Shown here: piece after piece, positions 16,845 to 57,158 of the stretch
How positions within the stretch are numbered: the stretch's first letter is position 1
How the letters are laid out: each line of letters starts with the position of its first letter
NCBI RefSeq assembly: GCF_000725805.1
Contig: NZ_JOFT01000018.1
Coordinates: 105,186-169,185, forward strand
DNA: 64,000 nt
Direction of reading: 5' to 3'
Source of the DNA: Streptomyces xanthophaeus
GTDB taxonomy: Bacteria > Actinomycetota > Actinomycetes > Streptomycetales > Streptomycetaceae
Notes under the pieces: generated by a model
What the model was told of the DNA's origin: nothing
Databases searched by the model: none
What the model saw: only the letters and a program-made list of their open reading frames with translations
Program-made: the position numbers and the translations under genes

Positions 16845-17389
16845 TGTCCCTGAACGACAACGCGAAGCGTCACGAGATCGACGTGCTGATCCGCCGGATC
16901 GACCCGGAGGTGCCGGTCCCGGCCTACGGTCACCCCGGCGACGCCGGCTGCGACCTCGTGACCACGGAGGCCGCCGAGCTGGAGCCCGGCGAGCGCGCCG
17001 TACTCCCCACCGGGGTGTCCATCGCCCTGCCCGACGGCTACGCGGCCTTCGTGCACCCCCGCTCGGGCCTGGCCGCCCGCTGCGGCCTCGCGCTCGTGAA
17101 TGCCCCGGGGACGGTGGATGCCGGGTACCGTGGGGAGATCAAGGTGATCGTGGTCAATCTCGACCCGCGCGAGAGCGTCCGGTTCGAGCGTTTCGACCGC
17201 ATTGCCCAGCTGGTTGTCCAGCGGGTCGAGAAGGTGCGCTTCCACGAGGTGGCGGAACTTCCCGGCTCGGCCCGGGCCGAGGGGGGTTTCGGCTCCACCG
17301 GCGGTCATGCGGCCGTGGCCGGATCCGGAGCTGGTCAGCAGGGTGGGAATGGCTACGCTTCGGTCGTAACCGACCGGGAAGGACAGTGA
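16844..17389 (+). CDS. dut: dUTP diphosphatase (dUTPase)
   Basis: This 181-residue protein contains all five trimeric dUTPase motifs in order: GDAGCDL; HPRSGLAARCG; GTVDAGYRGEIKVIVVN with the catalytic Asp; RFDRIAQLVVQ; and EGGFGSTG, which closes over the active site. It hydrolyses dUTP to dUMP and PPi, protecting DNA from uracil and supplying thymidylate synthesis. A ~25-residue Gly/Ala-rich tail follows motif 5. It overlaps the thioesterase gene and is followed 1 bp later by the DUF3710 gene. Confidence 0.95.
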   Translation: MSLNDNAKRHEIDVLIRRIDPEVPVPAYGHPGDAGCDLVTTEAAELEPGERAVLPTGVSIALPDGYAAFVHPRSGLAARCGLALVNAPGTVDAGYRGEIKVIVVNLDPRESVRFERFDRIAQLVVQRVEKVRFHEVAELPGSARAEGGFGSTGGHAAVAGSGAGQQGGNGYASVVTDREGQ

Positions 17390-42290: not shown

Positions 42291-42773
42291 TCACTGGGGG
42301 TGGACCGGAACCGGAGGGGGTACCGGTCCGGGGTGTCGGGCGGGCGTGGCGCCCCCCTTCGCGGCAAGGATTCGTCTTCGCGTGCGCGCCAGGGCGGCGG
42401 GGTCGGCGCGTTCCGCCGTCCACGGGCGGTGGAGGTGGTCGGACTCCCGTCGGGGGACCAGATGGACGTGCAGGTGGAAGACGTCCTGCCAGCCGGCCGG
42501 GCGGTTGGCCTGGAACAGCGTCAGACCGTCCGAGGGGAAGGCTGCGTCGAGGAGCGCGGCCATCCGGTGGGCCGTGCGCATCACCGAGGCGGCATCGTCC
42601 TCGGAGACCGCCCAGATGTCCGCCGCGTGGGCCCGGGGGATGACGAGGGTGTGGCCTTCCATCACCGCGGTGTTGTCGAGGAAGGCCACGGTCGACTCGT
42701 CCTGGAACAGGATCTCGGCGTGGAGCCGCCCGGCGACGATCTCGCAGAAGTCGCACGTCACCTCAGCGGCCAC
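42291..42773 (-). CDS. HIT-family nucleotide hydrolase
   Basis: This 160-residue protein starts at GTG 42773, which overlaps the end of cutC by 11 bp. It begins with CDFCEIVAG and contains the triad FHLHVHLVPRR near residue 100; the middle His is the nucleophile. HIT proteins hydrolyse adenosine 5'-monophosphoramidate, Ap4A or similar nucleotide-linked esters. The substrate is unknown. Confidence 0.85.
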   Translation of the reverse strand: MAAEVTCDFCEIVAGRLHAEILFQDESTVAFLDNTAVMEGHTLVIPRAHAADIWAVSEDDAASVMRTAHRMAALLDAAFPSDGLTLFQANRPAGWQDVFHLHVHLVPRRESDHLHRPWTAERADPAALARTRRRILAAKGGATPARHPGPVPPPVPVHPQ

Positions 42774-43479
42774 GGGTGCGCAGCTCCTCGGGATCGGTTT
42801 CGATGAGGCGCCGCCACCGCAGGACTGCGGCGCGGTCCACCGGGCTGTCCCAGCCGTCACGGCGGACGGACGTGCCCACGTGGAAGGCGCCGACCCCGTG
42901 GGCGCGCAGCGTCGGGACGTGCTCCGGCATGAGTCCGCCGCCCGCCATGATCGCGGCCGAGTAGCCGGGTTCGCCCCGCCGGTCGGCTTCCGCCGTCACC
43001 ACGGCGAGACCTTCCTCGACCCCGGCGACGCAGCCCGCCGTCAGGACGGTGTCCAGTCCGGGAAGCCCGGCGACGGCACGGCGCACCGCGCCCCGGTCCG
43101 CCGCGTGGTCGAGGGCGCGGTGGAACGTCCAGGGGGAGCCGGGAACCGACGCGAGGACGGCGGTGACCGCGGGCAGGTCCAAGGCTCCGTCCGGGGTGAG
43201 GAACCCGAGGACGAAGGCATCGGCCCCCGCGGCCTTCAGCGCTGCGGCGGTTTCGCGGATCCGGTCCACGTCAGCGGCCTGGAACCCGCCCTTGTCCCGC
43301 AGCATGATCCGCAGGGGGACGTCCACGCAGTCACGGACGCGGAGGAATTCCGTGAGGGAAGGGGTCATGCCGTCGGCGGCCATGTCGGTCGCCAGTTCCA
43401 GTCGGCCGGCGCCGCCCGCCACGGCTTCCACGGCCTCGTCCGCGGAGGTGACGACGACCTCAAGTACCGTCTCCTGCAC
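42763..43479 (-). CDS. cutC: CutC-family protein
   Basis: This 238-residue protein starts at GTG 43479. The TIM-barrel signature of CutC is seen in LEVVVTSADEAVEAVAGGAGRLEL (two joined parts), VPLRIMLRDKGGF and TFHRALDHAADR. CutC proteins were named for copper homeostasis, but that role is doubtful in many bacteria. Here it lies 5 bp downstream of the HAD gene. The operon context suggests a metabolic rather than copper-related job. Confidence 0.8.
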   Translation of the reverse strand: MQETVLEVVVTSADEAVEAVAGGAGRLELATDMAADGMTPSLTEFLRVRDCVDVPLRIMLRDKGGFQAADVDRIRETAAALKAAGADAFVLGFLTPDGALDLPAVTAVLASVPGSPWTFHRALDHAADRGAVRRAVAGLPGLDTVLTAGCVAGVEEGLAVVTAEADRRGEPGYSAAIMAGGGLMPEHVPTLRAHGVGAFHVGTSVRRDGWDSPVDRAAVLRWRRLIETDPEELRTRGR

Positions 43480-43484
43480 GGCCC

Positions 43485-44156
43485 TCAGCCCTCCGACCCG
43501 GCTACGGCACCGGCCACCGGCCCGAACTGCGGCGGCCAGGCGATGCCGGTGAGGTCGGCAACGACGAGGTCCGCGGCGCCGAGCGCCGCGGCGTCGTGTC
43601 CGGCGGCGATGGCGACGCAGCGGGCTCCGGCCGCCTTGGCCGCGGCCACCCCTGCCGGTGCGTCCTCGAACACCACGGTGGCCGACGGCTCGACGCCCAG
43701 GGCGGCGCAGCCGGCGAGGTAGCCCTCGGGGTCGGGCTTTCCGCGGGTCACGTCGTCGGCGGTGACCATGACGTCGAAGAGGGAGAGGGCGCCGAGGGCG
43801 CCGAGCTCGCCGCTCGCGTACTCCTTGGTTCCCGAGGTGACCAGTCCCACCGGAACGCCTGACGCGCGGAGCCGGGCCACGAGTTCGAGGGCGCCGGGGA
43901 CGGTCGCCACGGCGGGCATGTCGGGGAGCGTGGTGTAGTGCAGGGCCTCTGCGAAGAGGTCGTCGACCGTTCGGCCTGGGAAGCCGTGCACGTGGTCGCG
44001 CAGGGCCTCCCTGCCCGGGCGTCCGGCGAAGCTCCTGATGGTGGCCTCGTCGTAGGGGACTCCGTTGTTGCGGAACAGCCGTGTCCAGGCCTCGCGGCTG
44101 CGCGGCTCGGTGTCGATCAGCGTGCCGTCCAGGTCGAAGAGTGCGGCAGCGTACAT
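43485..44156 (-). CDS. HAD-family phosphatase/phosphoglucomutase-like
   Basis: This 223-residue protein starts at ATG 44156. HAD motif I is FDLDGTLIDTEP, motif II LVTSGT, Lys in TRGKPDPEGY, and motif IV VFEDAPAGVAAAKAAG. It belongs to the beta-phosphoglucomutase-like/phosphatase subgroup with a small cap after motif I. A sugar-phosphate substrate is plausible next to a glycosyltransferase. The gap to the glycosyltransferase gene is 40 bp. Confidence 0.85.
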   Translation of the reverse strand: MYAAALFDLDGTLIDTEPRSREAWTRLFRNNGVPYDEATIRSFAGRPGREALRDHVHGFPGRTVDDLFAEALHYTTLPDMPAVATVPGALELVARLRASGVPVGLVTSGTKEYASGELGALGALSLFDVMVTADDVTRGKPDPEGYLAGCAALGVEPSATVVFEDAPAGVAAAKAAGARCVAIAAGHDAAALGAADLVVADLTGIAWPPQFGPVAGAVAGSEG

Positions 44157-44196: not shown

Positions 44197-45291
44197 TCAG
44201 CGCAACTGTTCGGTGAGCCGGCCGAGTTCGTGTGCGGTTCTGGACAACGGGAACCGGGACGCGTTCCGGTGGCCGGCGCTGCGGAGTTCTTCCAGGGCGC
44301 TGCGGTCCGAGGCCAGCCGGACCAGGGCGTCACGGGTGCGGCGGGGAGCGCCGGTGAAATCCAGCGGGAGGGCCGAGTCGCCCAGGGCGTCGGTCAGTCC
44401 CGGCACGGCCTGGTAGGCCACGGGCAGTCCGCAGGCCTGCGCCTCGACGGCCACGAGACCGAAGGCCTCCAGCTTGGCCGACGGGATCACCAGCAGGTCG
44501 TGCTCGGCGAACGCGGCCCACAGGTCCGGTCGGCTCAGCCACCCCAGGTAGCGGACGGCGGACGTGTCCATGGCCTGGGACAGGCTCTGGAACTCCCCAA
44601 GCGGTGAGGCCATGCTGAGCCGGATGCCCGGGGCCCCGGACACGGCCGTGACCAGTTCGGCAGCGCCCTTCTCCGGGGTCAGCCGGCCCGCGTACAGGAC
44701 GCGCAGATCACCCTCACGGGAGACCGTACGGGCGGGCGGACCGGTCAGGAGCCGGTCGGGGACGCCCCAGGGGACGTGGACGATGCGGGAGGCCTCGACC
44801 GGGGTCAGCAGGCGGAGCCGGTCGGCCATCGCGGCGGTCGGCACCACGATGGTGCGGGCGGCCGCGGCGACCTGCCCCAGGACGTCCAGCTGCGTGGGGA
44901 ACTCCTCGGCGAAGAGGAGGTCCGTGCCGTGCACGAGCGCGATCGCGGGGTGCTCCGGATACCCGCGCAGCAGCGCGGGAGCGGCTCCGAAGGCGAGGTG
45001 CTGCAGGTGGAGGACATCCTGCTCCCCCGGAGGGAAGTGCCGGGTCAGGGCACGGGTGAGCCGCTCGACGTAGGACCAGAACCCTGCCCCGTTCAGCTGC
45101 TTGCCCGGTACGTCGAGCAGCGTGGGCCGTGCTTGGCCGCCGGGGGCGGGACCGTCGTCCGGGCCGAGCATGAACGTACGGGCGGGCAGGGGTGCCGACG
45201 GTCCCAGGTAGAGGTCCTTGAGCAGCTCGACGCTGCCCCCGGGGCTGCCCCAGGGCAGGTCGAGGCCGGTCAGCACCTGTGTCCCGCTCAC
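44197..45291 (-). CDS. GT4-family glycosyltransferase
   Basis: This 364-residue protein starts at GTG 45291 in GTGA overlap with the previous gene; upstream in-frame ATGs belong to a shadow. It has GTPGGSV-like LPWGSPGGSVELLKDLYLGP, the HGTDLLF acceptor/nucleotide stretch, VLYAGRLTPEKGAAELV, and the nucleotide-binding ES(D/E)GLVxxEA-like LEAFGLVAVEAQACGLPV. Retaining GT-B enzymes of this family transfer sugars from NDP-sugars. The acceptor is unknown. It is the sixth gene of operon A. Confidence 0.85.
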   Translation of the reverse strand: MSGTQVLTGLDLPWGSPGGSVELLKDLYLGPSAPLPARTFMLGPDDGPAPGGQARPTLLDVPGKQLNGAGFWSYVERLTRALTRHFPPGEQDVLHLQHLAFGAAPALLRGYPEHPAIALVHGTDLLFAEEFPTQLDVLGQVAAAARTIVVPTAAMADRLRLLTPVEASRIVHVPWGVPDRLLTGPPARTVSREGDLRVLYAGRLTPEKGAAELVTAVSGAPGIRLSMASPLGEFQSLSQAMDTSAVRYLGWLSRPDLWAAFAEHDLLVIPSAKLEAFGLVAVEAQACGLPVAYQAVPGLTDALGDSALPLDFTGAPRRTRDALVRLASDRSALEELRSAGHRNASRFPLSRTAHELGRLTEQLR

Positions 45292-45815
45292 CGGAGCTCT
45301 TCGTACAGCCGCGAGATGTCGATCCCGCTCGTCCGGGTGTACTTGTGGCCGAGGTGCTGGTAGCTGGCGGCCGCACCGGCGGTGGACATGAAGACGATCT
45401 TCCCGAAGGGCATGAACGGGTAGACCCGGACCGGGCGGGCCACTCGGATCTCCAGGGTCCACCGGATGGCGTGGCCGACGTGTCCCAGCGGGGCGGACAC
45501 GTGCACCCAGATCCCCAGCGCGCCGAGGCTGCGGTCGCCGTTGATCATCTGCGCGTAGCGCTCGGAGTGGGTGCGCTCAAGGGTGACTCCGAGGTAGAGC
45601 TGTCCGGGCTGAAGCACCATGCCCTCGGTGGGGATGACGTGTTCGGTGACCCGGGTCGCGGCCGCCGCGTCCAGTTCGTCGCCCTCGCAGATCCGGATGC
45701 GGTCACCCAGGTGCCAGTCGTAGGCGTTCGGGGAGATGCGCTCCGGGTCGAAGGGCTCGATGGCGATGTCGCCGTCCCGCACGGCGGCGGCTATGGCTTC
45801 GCGGGTGAGGATCAC
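45288..45815 (-). CDS. dCTP deaminase-fold protein, paralogue 1
   Basis: This 175-residue protein starts at GTG 45815. The fold is recognisable from ISPNAYDWHLGD, LQPGQLYLGVTLE and RVYPFMPFGKIVF. Compared with E. coli Dcd as remembered (R110, S111, R115, E138), the loop reads GDRSLGALG, so the Arg, first Ser and second Arg positions are D94, R95 and A99; the Glu is kept as E122. On its own it should not have a normal Dcd site. It follows a paralogue with the reciprocal pattern, overlapping by 4 bp. Confidence 0.75.
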   Translation of the reverse strand: MILTREAIAAAVRDGDIAIEPFDPERISPNAYDWHLGDRIRICEGDELDAAAATRVTEHVIPTEGMVLQPGQLYLGVTLERTHSERYAQMINGDRSLGALGIWVHVSAPLGHVGHAIRWTLEIRVARPVRVYPFMPFGKIVFMSTAGAAASYQHLGHKYTRTSGIDISRLYEELR

Positions 45816-46342
45816 TTCGCGGACACCGCCACGTCACGCCAGTAGCGGGACTCCTGGGGGCCCGTGGCGGACTGGTACTTGCCTTCGTAGAGGTCGACCC
45901 GTCCCAGTGAGACGAAGAACATGATCTGACCGATCTTCATCCCGGGATAGACCCGCAGACGCCTGACCGGCGAGAGCATCAGGGTCCACTGCCCGTGGAA
46001 GCCGATGTCGCCGATCGGCGCGGTGATCTCCACGAACAGCCCGAGCCGGCCGACCGACGAGCGCCCGAACAGGAGCGGTACGTAGAGGTCTGACCCGACG
46101 CGCTCCACGGTGTGCCCGAGGTAGAGCTCTCCCGGCTCCAGGACGTAGCCCTCCTCCCCGATGGTGATCTCACGCGTCGGGTTCGGGAGGTAGGGGTCGA
46201 TCACGTCGCCGGTGTACGTGAGCAGCTTGTCTCCGAGGCAGACGTTGTAGCTGTTGGGGTTGACCTGGTCCGGGTGGAACGGCGAGATGGCGATGCGCCC
46301 GTCCTCTGCCGCGGCGCTGATCTCGGGGCCGGTGAGGATCAT
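45812..46342 (-). CDS. dCTP deaminase-fold protein, paralogue 2
   Basis: This 176-residue protein starts at ATG 46342. NPNSYNVCLGD, LEPGELYLGHTVE and VYPGMKIGQIMFF mark the Dcd/dUTPase-like fold. The catalytic loop GRSSVGRLG is complete (R94, S95, R99), but the position of the catalytic Glu is M122. Paralogue 1 has exactly the opposite defect at the same residue numbers. The family is trimeric with active sites between subunits. The gene overlaps its neighbours by 4 bp on both sides. Confidence 0.75.
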   Translation of the reverse strand: MILTGPEISAAAEDGRIAISPFHPDQVNPNSYNVCLGDKLLTYTGDVIDPYLPNPTREITIGEEGYVLEPGELYLGHTVERVGSDLYVPLLFGRSSVGRLGLFVEITAPIGDIGFHGQWTLMLSPVRRLRVYPGMKIGQIMFFVSLGRVDLYEGKYQSATGPQESRYWRDVAVSAK

Positions 46343-47349
46343 GCGGCGCTCCCCGCGGTACGGGGCTGCCCGGCGTCGAAGTCGAAGGCCACCCTGCCTT
46401 CGATGTCCAGTTCGCGGCACAGGCGGCGTACTCCGGAGAAGTCGGTCACGAGCAGTTCGGAGAGCTGCCCGGACCCGTCGCGCCTGCAGTCCTCGATGAT
46501 GTCCCTGGCCTTCGGTACTCCTGCGAACTCCAGCACCTTCAGCCACCAGTCGTAGTCCTCCGCGCAGAAGGCGTTGATACCGGAGGGCAGCGCCGCCACG
46601 AAGAAGTCCTGCTGTTCCCTGTTCAGATGGACGTAGACGTCCTTCATGATCTCGACCATGACCGGACCGTGCGCCGATTCGTCGCGCGCGTGGAGCCGTG
46701 CGATCAGGGAGTGCAGCGGCTGGACGGTGGTGTCCCCGGCCATCAGGTCGAGGAACGCGTTGACGCTGACCTCACCGACCGTGGTCCACAGCAGGTAGAG
46801 GATGTCCGCCTGCCAGCGCTCGGCGGACGCGTCCGCGGCTTCGTACAGCAGGCGGTTGGTGACCGGATGGGCGCCCTCGGGCTCGGCCTTGATCTGCCGT
46901 GCTTCCCGGGTGCGCTGCATGCCCAGCATGTGCATGTAGGTGTGCCACACCTCGTCGATGTGCGACTGCCGCACGATCTCCTTGACCTCGAAGCGGTCCA
47001 CGCCGGGGAACACCGCGTGGCCGAGCTTCTCGAAGGTCGGATTGACGACGTGTTCCTCCGCCGCGACGACGCGTTCGTTGTACGCGATCCAGCCGAGGGT
47101 GTTCACCGTGCGGCGCTTGCTCTCGGCGACGCTCCGGAAGTCGGGGTGCGCGCTGAACGGCATCAGGGACTCCGGGTAGTCCAGCAGTTCCGGGTCGTAC
47201 TCCTGTGCACCGGTGATCCGCTCCATGTCGGTCCGTACGGTGGCCCGCCTGGGCCAGGCCGCGGCGAGCCGGCGGAGGGTGCTGGGTCCCACCGACTCGT
47301 GGGTTTCCTCGATGGTTCTCAACACTCTGGACTCTTCCTTCCCTGTCAT
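46339..47349 (-). CDS. AurF-family diiron N-oxygenase
   Basis: This 336-residue protein starts at ATG 47349. All seven diiron ligands known for AurF can be placed with identical spacing: E98, E133, H136 (IDEVWH), E193, H220, E224 and H227 (ARDESAH). AurF and CmlI oxidise aryl amines to nitro groups through hydroxylamines; relatives also perform other N-oxygenations. Here it lies between an O-methyltransferase and dCTP-deaminase-fold genes, each with 4-bp overlap. The substrate is unknown. Confidence 0.88.
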   Translation of the reverse strand: MTGKEESRVLRTIEETHESVGPSTLRRLAAAWPRRATVRTDMERITGAQEYDPELLDYPESLMPFSAHPDFRSVAESKRRTVNTLGWIAYNERVVAAEEHVVNPTFEKLGHAVFPGVDRFEVKEIVRQSHIDEVWHTYMHMLGMQRTREARQIKAEPEGAHPVTNRLLYEAADASAERWQADILYLLWTTVGEVSVNAFLDLMAGDTTVQPLHSLIARLHARDESAHGPVMVEIMKDVYVHLNREQQDFFVAALPSGINAFCAEDYDWWLKVLEFAGVPKARDIIEDCRRDGSGQLSELLVTDFSGVRRLCRELDIEGRVAFDFDAGQPRTAGSAA

Positions 47350-55118: not shown

Positions 55119-57158
55119 TCAAGGGAAGGGGTGGGGATGGGGGTTGATGTCCTCGGGTGTCAGGACCTTGTCCCGGTAGCCCAGTTCGAACGGGACGTCG
55201 AGCAGCCGTGGCAGGCCGTCGACGCGCCGGTTGCGGTGTCCGAAGGTCATCGGCAGGGTGCCGGGCACCATCACCTTCACGCAGGCGAAGCCGCCCGCCC
55301 GGTGCTCGGGCGTCGTCTGGTCCACGACCAGGACGTCCAGCCCGTGGCCGAGGTAGCGCTGCACCATCTCGTCCAGGTCGGAACGCAGGTCGGTGTGGGC
55401 GGGCCACTGCCACTGCCGCGCGAAGTCGGAGAACGGCCGCGCCTCGCGGTCGGAGAGGAGGAAGCCGAACCGGTCGAAGGCGTCCTGATGGCTGTAGAGC
55501 ACGGAGTGGTCGCCCATCACCTTCACCAGCGACGGGTCCGTCACCATGCGGGCGGCCCGGTCCCGCTCCGCCGCGTCGTAGAGCTTCGCGTGCTCCAGCA
55601 GGTGGCCCATTTCGTGCAGGACGTTGATCACGGCCTTCTCGGGCTGCAGTGCCGAGCCGCCGGCGCACAGCACGCGAGGCCGCCCCGGGTCATCGAGGGT
55701 GTCGAGGCCCACCGCCCAGAAGCAGGGGATTCCCTGCTCCAGCGTTGCCGAGTACAGCTGGATCGCGTACCCGGTCCGGTGACGCAGATGCTCGATCATC
55801 ATCGGGATGGAACGGTCCCGCGCACTGGCGGGGTCGATCCGCGGGATGGGCATCCGGCCGTACCAGGTCATCAGGAAGGCATCGCGCTCCGCCACTTCGA
55901 GCAGGCCGCACAGGATCGCCTCCTCCAGGCAGCCGCCCATGGCGCAGCCGTTGGATATCTCGTAGACGAACCGGGGGTCCTCGTGGCTGTGCGCGGCGTA
56001 GTAGGCATACCGTTCCGGCACCAGTACCGCTTCTCCGCGGGCGAAGGAGTACCCCCAGACCCACGGCATCACCAGGTCTTCGTCGTACCGGACGTAGGGG
56101 AACCCCGGCAGTTCGTGGCGGTCGTCCGGGTAGAGGCCGAAGGCGCGCGGATCGACGGCGCGGTCGCCCAGCTCGCGGCGGCTCGCCGTGACCGAGGTCC
56201 GGTGCCCTCGCGGCTGCTCGCCGCCGAAGCGTTCGAGGGCCTCGAGCACGGCGGTGATCCTGGAGGACCGGTAGTCGGTCGTACGGCCCCAGCCGTGCTG
56301 GGAGTTGTTGCCGCGCAGGGAGCTCAGGGGTGCGACGGCACGCGGCAGCGGTCCGCCGCGTTCGTCGTCCACCGAGGGGACCACGCCCGCCACCCGGTCG
56401 ACGTACAGGTCGTACAGTTCCCGCTCGCGCGCCACCACGTTCTGCACCCGGAAGACATCGGGCGCGGGCTTCGGGCGCGGGCGCGGCACCACGTGGGCCG
56501 CCGCGGGACCGTCGACGGGCAGGCCGCCGCAGTCCTCGCAGAGGGAGCAGGGCAGGTAGCGGTGGGAGCTGATGGCGAGCGAGGCCAGCCCGACCCGCAG
56601 GAACACGTCGCCCGGCCGCCGCACCCCCGCGCTGTCCACGGGGTCGGCCGTGAGGTGCGACGGCTCACCGGAGACGGCGGATTCCACGAGAGAGAGCGCG
56701 AGTTCGGCGGCCGTGGACGCGGCCGCCCGGGTGAGCATCCGGGAGCGCCGGGCCGCCAGCTCGGCCCCGTGCCGGGCGCGGAGCGTCTCGTGGTGCTGCG
56801 CCTGGTCCCGCGCGAGTCGGCGGCGCCAGTCCGCACAGGTCGGGCAGCCGGTGCCAGGGCCCGAAGCCACCGGTCCGACGTGGATGGCATCCGCATCGGT
56901 GACGACGGGAATCCAGGGGATGCCGGCGGCTTCCGCGGCCTTGCGCACACCGGCGTGGTGGTCCGTGGCCGCGGTGTCGCCGGGAACCAGGACCGCCTGG
57001 CACGCACCGAGTCCGGCGGGGAGCTCGGCGCCGTCCGGGCGTACGACGTCGTACCGGCGTGCCGCGAGGAGGGTGGCGACGGCCGTGTCGAGGAGCCCGC
57101 CGTCACCCAGGACGGCGATCGTCCGCGTGGTGACCGGGTACGGGATCGGTTCAGACAT
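55119..57158 (-). CDS. fused azole-forming cyclodehydratase (leader-binding/E1-like + YcaO)
   Basis: This 679-residue protein starts at ATG 57158. The N-terminal E1-like, leader-binding region (~1-230) has IAVLGDGGLLD and two Cys pairs (CPTC, CSLCEDC) likely binding Zn. The C-terminal YcaO domain (~270-679) contains SSRITAVLEALERFGGEQP, EISNGCAMGGCLEEAI, and EVAERDAFLMTWYG. The C-terminus ends NPHPHPFP, resembling the Pro-rich tail required by azoline-forming YcaO enzymes. It makes thiazoline/oxazoline rings on Cys, Ser or Thr of a precursor peptide using ATP. It overlaps the ThiF-like gene by 8 bp. Confidence 0.9.
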   Translation of the reverse strand: MSEPIPYPVTTRTIAVLGDGGLLDTAVATLLAARRYDVVRPDGAELPAGLGACQAVLVPGDTAATDHHAGVRKAAEAAGIPWIPVVTDADAIHVGPVASGPGTGCPTCADWRRRLARDQAQHHETLRARHGAELAARRSRMLTRAAASTAAELALSLVESAVSGEPSHLTADPVDSAGVRRPGDVFLRVGLASLAISSHRYLPCSLCEDCGGLPVDGPAAAHVVPRPRPKPAPDVFRVQNVVARERELYDLYVDRVAGVVPSVDDERGGPLPRAVAPLSSLRGNNSQHGWGRTTDYRSSRITAVLEALERFGGEQPRGHRTSVTASRRELGDRAVDPRAFGLYPDDRHELPGFPYVRYDEDLVMPWVWGYSFARGEAVLVPERYAYYAAHSHEDPRFVYEISNGCAMGGCLEEAILCGLLEVAERDAFLMTWYGRMPIPRIDPASARDRSIPMMIEHLRHRTGYAIQLYSATLEQGIPCFWAVGLDTLDDPGRPRVLCAGGSALQPEKAVINVLHEMGHLLEHAKLYDAAERDRAARMVTDPSLVKVMGDHSVLYSHQDAFDRFGFLLSDREARPFSDFARQWQWPAHTDLRSDLDEMVQRYLGHGLDVLVVDQTTPEHRAGGFACVKVMVPGTLPMTFGHRNRRVDGLPRLLDVPFELGYRDKVLTPEDINPHPHPFP

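Follow-up and report, generated by a model that had tools for sequence, protein, structure and literature searches.

In a 64,000-nucleotide stretch of Streptomyces xanthophaeus DNA (contig NZ_JOFT01000018.1, positions 105,186 to 169,185; hereafter the window), two overlapping genes encode paralogues of the Dcd fold, D2 and D1, that divide between them residues held in one chain by canonical deoxycytidine triphosphate (dCTP) deaminases. D2 (45812..46342, minus strand, 176 amino acids) retains R94, S95, S96, R99 and D112 and carries Met122 in place of the catalytic Glu, and D1 (45288..45815, minus strand, 175 amino acids) retains Glu122 together with H105, H112 and H115 and has lost motif II (D94, R95, S96, A99). 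The stop codon of D2 and the start codon of D1 share four nucleotides, GTGA (45812..45815, minus strand), an overlap read as translational coupling. We consider it probable, at about 60%, that D2 and D1 are obligate partners, i.e., co-translated subunits that would form a hetero-oligomer with a composite site. This reading builds on the two sequences, their conserved complementary residues, the coupling of their genes, the conserved genomic contexts and a Dcd-fold model of D1.

An earlier note, made from the letters of the window, had described two overlapping Dcd-fold paralogues at 45288..46342; both open reading frames are indeed present, with the GTGA overlap, and both products match the Pfam DCD family PF22769 (D1, 5.3e-26; D2, 7.6e-41). 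The predicted structure of D1 matches DCD structures, and D2 is assigned to the fold from its sequence only. When scored with the NCBIfam dCTP deaminase model TIGR02274 (equivalog cut-off 92.8), D1 remains below the threshold (67.4 bits) and D2 lies just above it (94.8); D2 thus passes although it lacks the catalytic Glu, and automatic annotation is misleading in this case. Many homologues of D1 and D2 are named 'dCTP deaminase' or 'deoxycytidine triphosphate deaminase' in databases, after an enzyme that as a homotrimer turns dCTP into dUTP, yet neither chain alone has its active site. In a common numbering D2 reads GRSSVGR...D112...M122 and D1 reads GDRSLGA...H112...E122, so that D1 has also lost the motif III Asp, whose position, ten ahead of E122 within that chain, is taken by His (in D2, RSS belongs to motif II and Asp112 to motif III). 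The alignment, previously described as gapless, has no net gap before residue 122 and a three-residue gap only near the C-terminus. The 27 residues separating positions 95 and 122 equal the S...E spacing of the aligned M. tuberculosis DCD-DUT; in E. coli Dcd they would correspond to S111 and E138, the residues cited in the note. E138A and E138D are studied mutants, according to PDB titles.

The residue split is not due to chance. Among the best 120 of 1468 D2 homologues, R94, S95, S96, R99, D112 and M122 are each found in 120/120, and among the best 120 of 396 D1 homologues the same holds for E122, H105, H112, H115 and W103. In the latter set Ser95 never occurs, Arg99 occurs once, and D94 (105) and R95 (92) vary. 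The residues that the earlier note had listed are therefore correct for both paralogues (R94, S95, R99 and Met122 in D2; D94, R95, A99 and Glu122 in D1), Glu122 being fixed and D94 and R95 variable among homologues. The split was also followed in 98 unique D1 and 97 unique D2 proteins from fetched loci, whose sources overlap in part and from which identical D1 proteins were removed. These loci are the best matches to D1 (80 of 169 in the species scan), and the 98-locus counts thus describe close relatives; their genes were called by our own codon-based caller, which missed the D1 genes of L097 and L112, found later and kept outside the 98. All 98 D1 proteins have E122 without D112 or the S95 and R99 combination, with H105, H112 and H115 invariant, and 96 of the 97 D2 proteins have D112, S95 and R99 without E122, the remaining one being a frame-broken copy in L043. 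The catalytic Glu and the motif II Ser/Arg never meet in one chain (0/98 D1, 0/97 D2), nor do the motif III Asp and the deaminase Glu that mark bifunctional DCD-DUT enzymes (0/98 and 0/97), and the trimeric-dUTPase combination of motif II RSS with the motif III Asp is found in D2 only (96/97). As a control, K-S-S/T, R99, D112 and E122 stand together in one chain in 31/31 canonical Dcd proteins of the phylum (the 30 best Pfam hits plus the host's gene, a set biased to typical enzymes; L188 was left out for want of a usable protein).

Decay of one or both genes does not account for this pattern. Across five near loci (the window, L035, L036, L077 and L078), the ratio of nonsynonymous to synonymous substitution rates (dN/dS) is 0.06-0.19 for D1 and 0.04-0.18 for D2, and at these values (0.04-0.19) a pseudogene reading is rejected. 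In the same loci the AurF, GT4 and O-methyltransferase genes give 0.20-0.35, and the HIT gene gives 0.11-0.23, overlapping the ranges of D1 and D2.

The segregation of Glu and Asp extends to ten more distant pairs. In five of them (L064-L068, the pht type, likened below to the phaseolotoxin cluster), the Glu member reads A-C-R-S...T with H112 and E122, and its partner reads A-R-S-S...R with D112 and Gln122 (5/5). In the other five (L070-L074), S95 and R99 are still present in the Glu member, its position 112 is Q, N, H, H and H, respectively, and the partner again keeps D112 with Gln122 (5/5). Thus, every full-length pair checked has the motif III Asp and the deaminase Glu on different members, and the D1 and pht-type branches have lost motif II as well. 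The earlier note had regarded homologues in which one member alone has all catalytic residues as the case that would speak against a split; no full-length pair checked contains such a member, the nearest approach being the Glu member of L070-L074, which lacks only the Asp. Among the best 120 of 210 pht-type D1 homologues, E122 is present in 119 and H112 in 120, and H105 and H115, which together with H112 and E122 might make up a metal site in D1, are not kept. The D2-like domain of L064-L068 lies inside a protein of 805-835 amino acids (5/5), with the two genes of each pair about 6-10 kb apart, and in L064, the only member scanned, it is fused to PPDK_N and PEP-utilizer domains.

The members of these pairs have also remained together. 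D1 matches at E<=1e-15 occur in 58 of the 394 genomes of the window's family, with at least two matches in 56 of the 58. A scan of species genomes yielded 169 relatives, and the best 80, which were kept, come from Streptomyces, Kitasatospora, Amycolatopsis, Nonomuraea, Planotetraspora, Actinomadura, Micromonospora, Promicromonospora and others. D2 is the next gene upstream on the same strand for 97 of the 98 unique D1 genes, the last (L151) being cut by a contig end, so that co-occurrence with a fixed residue pattern, the check proposed in the earlier note, is borne out. The two genes overlap by 4 nucleotides at 94 of the 98 loci and by 1 nucleotide at 3. For the pht type, a partner was found within about 10 kb on the same contig in 7/7 genomes whose D1 is >60% identical to that of L064 (388 genomes searched). 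In a tree built from all alignment columns, the Glu-keeping members form one clade (39 rows, support 97/91), apart from D2, the groups labelled K and Q, and canonical Dcd; when the columns of residues 90-124 are removed, D1 and the pht type still group together (99/92). An old split whose products were kept together is no more than likely for the most distant pairs, where long branches are flagged. The family genomes, the species-genome scan and the tree lead us to reject a recent duplication in this strain.

From these observations we infer hetero-oligomerisation, a composite site, a nucleotide substrate and hydrolytic chemistry. At one type of interface, D2 would supply the phosphate-gripping loop and the catalytic Ser/Arg (R94, S95, S96, R99), and D1 would supply Glu122 and a re-tooled motif III (H105, H112, H115); the reverse interface, in which motif II of D1 would face M122 of D2, would be a dead site. 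The substrate of the composite site may resemble a nucleotide but is probably other than dCTP, and the pathway would be one of specialised metabolism, in which the enzyme would stand next to a glycosyltransferase and either an UshA-like or a HIT phosphohydrolase. With His replacing the motif III Asp in D1, no canonical dCTP deaminase site can be rebuilt at the D1/D2 interface. The proposal that a hetero-oligomer could restore complete sites therefore survives in part: such an interface would join S95/R99 with E122, but, judging from the residues, a composite and re-tooled site would be the better description. A 2:1 trimer could place deaminase-type and pyrophosphatase-type sites at different interfaces. 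HIT-family proteins are known as phosphoramidases, and, considering also the PPDK-like fusion, P-N bond chemistry may be speculated upon. No hetero-oligomeric Dcd, and no function for such a pair, was found in the literature as searched by titles and abstracts, a coverage outside which most subscription journals lie.

Several observations weigh against a composite hetero-oligomer. The proposed site would lack the motif III Asp of canonical enzymes, and the predicted structure of D2 is of low quality (predicted local distance difference test score, pLDDT, 49). The five most divergent pairs (L070-L074) show only the Glu/Asp split, their Glu member retaining S95 and R99. Two family genomes with a single match (G026 and G165) contain D1 fragments with no D2 within the surrounding 10 kb, and the intact D1 of L043 adjoins a D2 whose frame is broken in the DNA, though that genome holds another intact pair. 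Finally, without columns 90-124 the tree no longer gathers all Glu-keeping members in one clade, although such a clade is not rejected (p-AU 0.126).

The same retention of S95 and R99 in L070-L074 would suit two homo-oligomeric enzymes of one pathway, each working alone, whose gene coupling only balances their amounts. D2, which retains both motif II and Asp112 and lacks the deaminase Glu, would then be a dUTPase-like nucleoside triphosphate pyrophosphohydrolase, D1 would act on a non-triphosphate ligand via Glu122, and the nearby UshA-like or HIT hydrolase would fit nucleoside monophosphate-type products. Asp112 of D2 presumably matches, by motif comparison, D102 of human dUTPase. The Asn mutant of that human residue served to switch sites off, as described in excerpts of a study of engineered enzymes (PMC4827122). 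However, such independence sits poorly with the retention of Glu122 in 98/98 D1 proteins, all of which lack its canonical Ser/Arg partners, and with two genes that are almost never apart and overlap by 4 nucleotides at 94/98 loci; we consider this division of labour unlikely. The loss of motif II from D1 could instead mean that the pair includes a pseudoenzyme, whose role is to regulate or stabilise its partner; D1, for example, might be the allosteric subunit of a nucleotide hydrolase built on D2, with Glu122 non-catalytic. Excerpts of the same study describe how an allosteric loop close to the site regulates DCD enzymes by way of the central channel (PMC4827122), which lends this some precedent. 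Nevertheless, a purely structural role would not need the invariance of Glu122, H105, H112 and H115 in 98/98 D1 proteins, nor the persistence of Glu122 in 119 of the best 120 pht-type D1 homologues, and a pseudoenzyme is accordingly quite improbable. Anti-phage dCTP deaminases exist, and a relaxase-family gene (Pfam Relaxase for one member) accompanies 34/77 MurA-type loci, but that the pair is defence or mobile-element cargo, directed at nucleotide pools and not at biosynthesis, is very improbable, since the AurF, O-methyltransferase and P450 neighbours and the absence of that relaxase from the AurF loci (0/13) look biosynthetic (PADLOC matched none of 9 cassette proteins, a test that was blind in that it also left the host's canonical Dcd control unmatched).

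The composite hetero-oligomer remains our preferred reading, and a broader proposal can be attached to it, tentatively and at somewhat less than even odds: the pair may be a natural heteromer of the dUTPase superfamily, complete only as a heteromer, in which the motif III Asp and the deaminase Glu are divided between long-associated paralogues, and which could serve as a portable nucleotide-processing module of many specialised-metabolite pathways, phaseolotoxin-like ones included. If the composite enzyme is real, it would provide a clean natural case in which duplicated subunits share out the catalytic residues, and the species-genome scan makes 169 related loci available. The pair may also serve as a marker in the search for new natural products derived from nucleotides, and it gives a hypothesis for phtJ and phtK, two unexplained genes of the long-studied phaseolotoxin cluster.

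Within the window, the start of D2 overlaps by 4 nucleotides (ATGA) the stop of an AurF-type diiron oxygenase gene (46339..47349), and the stop of D1 overlaps (GTGA) the GTG start, deduced from this overlap, of a GT4-type glycosyltransferase gene (44197..45291). Given these 4-nucleotide overlaps, AurF-D2-D1-GT4 constitutes one coupled run, which takes in a CutC-family protein (42763..43479); a HAD-family phosphatase-like protein (43485..44156) lies between GT4 and CutC, and a HIT-domain hydrolase is encoded at 42291..42773, all of these on the minus strand. An O-methyltransferase and a P450 are also neighbours of the pair. The host carries a canonical dcd of its own (G000:C10), and a dut match lies at about 16967-17224 of the window; the pair is thus probably not a housekeeping one. 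Elsewhere, between 49991 and 60604, the window encodes a YcaO cyclodehydratase (55119-57158), two nitroreductase-family proteins, an FAD oxidoreductase, a LuxR-type regulator and an EryCIII-like glycosyltransferase, possibly an azole-type cluster for a ribosomally synthesised and post-translationally modified peptide that is joined to the D2/D1 gene run.

Neighbourhoods were counted over the 98 unique loci, "near" meaning within eight genes. A GT4 gene lies directly downstream of D1 in 94/98. An UshA-like phosphatase is near in 77 loci and a HIT hydrolase in 19; the two never occur together, so that 96 loci have either and 2 neither. For the UshA-like protein, Pfam gives no match and NCBIfam gives weak ones, to SoxB and UshA-like models. 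An AurF gene stands directly upstream of the pair in 13/98 loci, always with HIT. The earlier note had placed the pair beside an AurF-type oxygenase and a glycosyltransferase, and both do flank it in the window; the glycosyltransferase proves general, but AurF is one of several contexts and is rejected as a defining partner. MurA/EPSP-synthase-like genes are near in 77/98 loci (76 with the UshA-like gene), beta-lactamase-like genes in 71, XRE regulators in 61 and flavoproteins in 56. A recurrent cassette, seen in L044 and like loci, combines MurA-like, UshA-like phosphatase, D2, D1, GT4 and beta-lactamase-like genes. The relaxase-family gene was counted across loci of up to about 20 kb and is likewise absent from the 8 other loci (0/8). 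The family names GT4, EPSP_synthase, Beta-lactamase, Flavoprotein, Relaxase, GH3, polysaccharide deacetylase, ROK, ArgG-like and HIT derive from one scanned member each. Among the divergent pairs, L070 and L073 adjoin aminoacyl-tRNA-synthetase-like genes, L070 also with a PIG-L deacetylase and a WbqC-like protein and L073 with an AAA_33 kinase-like protein, and L072 adjoins a dCMP-deaminase-domain protein.

The closest counterpart of the pht-type loci is the phaseolotoxin (pht) cluster itself. Excerpts of a review list adjacent phtJ and phtK in it, both annotated as 'deoxycytidine triphosphate deaminase', along with phtL (PPDK), desaturases, an ornithine aminotransferase and a HAD gene, and report that the toxin is lost on mutation of 11 of 14 pht genes, from phtA to phtT (PMC3927611). 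PhtL has been postulated, in excerpts of a further source, to be related to N-P bond formation (PMC11278893). The neighbours of L064 include, by Pfam, a fatty-acid desaturase, a class III aminotransferase, a HAD protein and a phosphodiesterase; by clustering, the desaturase and aminotransferase recur in 3/5 of L064-L068 and the HAD and phosphodiesterase genes in 4/5. L064-L068, which come from Streptomycetaceae, thus resemble the phaseolotoxin cluster and offer a naturally occurring Dcd-PPDK_N/PEP-utilizer fusion. The likeness concerns gene content: both have two Dcd genes and a PPDK-like gene, and some of the loci also share the desaturase, aminotransferase and HAD genes. Unlike phtJ and phtK, the two genes of L064-L068 are separated and one of them encodes the large fusion protein. 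No PPDK-like protein was found among the part of the window's neighbours that was scanned, the contig stopping at the window end.

Canonical and bifunctional dCTP deaminase-dUTPases (M. tuberculosis 2qxx, B. halodurans 4xjc, M. jannaschii 1ogh; the monofunctional E. coli enzyme, 1xs1) hold motif II, the Asp and the Glu in one chain, whereas D1 and D2 split them. Tandem-domain Dcd proteins of the Agrobacterium 2r9q type (L187 and L189-L193, of the same phylum, whose kinship with 2r9q is deduced from its two-domain length only) resemble the pair in having two unlike Dcd domains, the second without motif II by eye, but are fused in one chain, and both of their domains keep the Asp and Glu by eye. 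The monomeric herpesvirus-type dUTPase of Epstein-Barr virus also arose by duplication followed by motif loss, its site combining, in excerpts of the source, motif III of one domain with motifs I, II and IV of the other (PMC12524310); it is, however, fused in cis and a plain dUTPase, whereas the pair consists of separate bacterial genes with altered pocket residues. Lastly, in engineered human dUTPase pseudo-heterotrimers, mixed subunits with selectively dead sites are active at the others, as excerpts of that study describe (PMC4827122), much as is proposed here, although those are man-made linked chains and D1 and D2 are natural paralogues.
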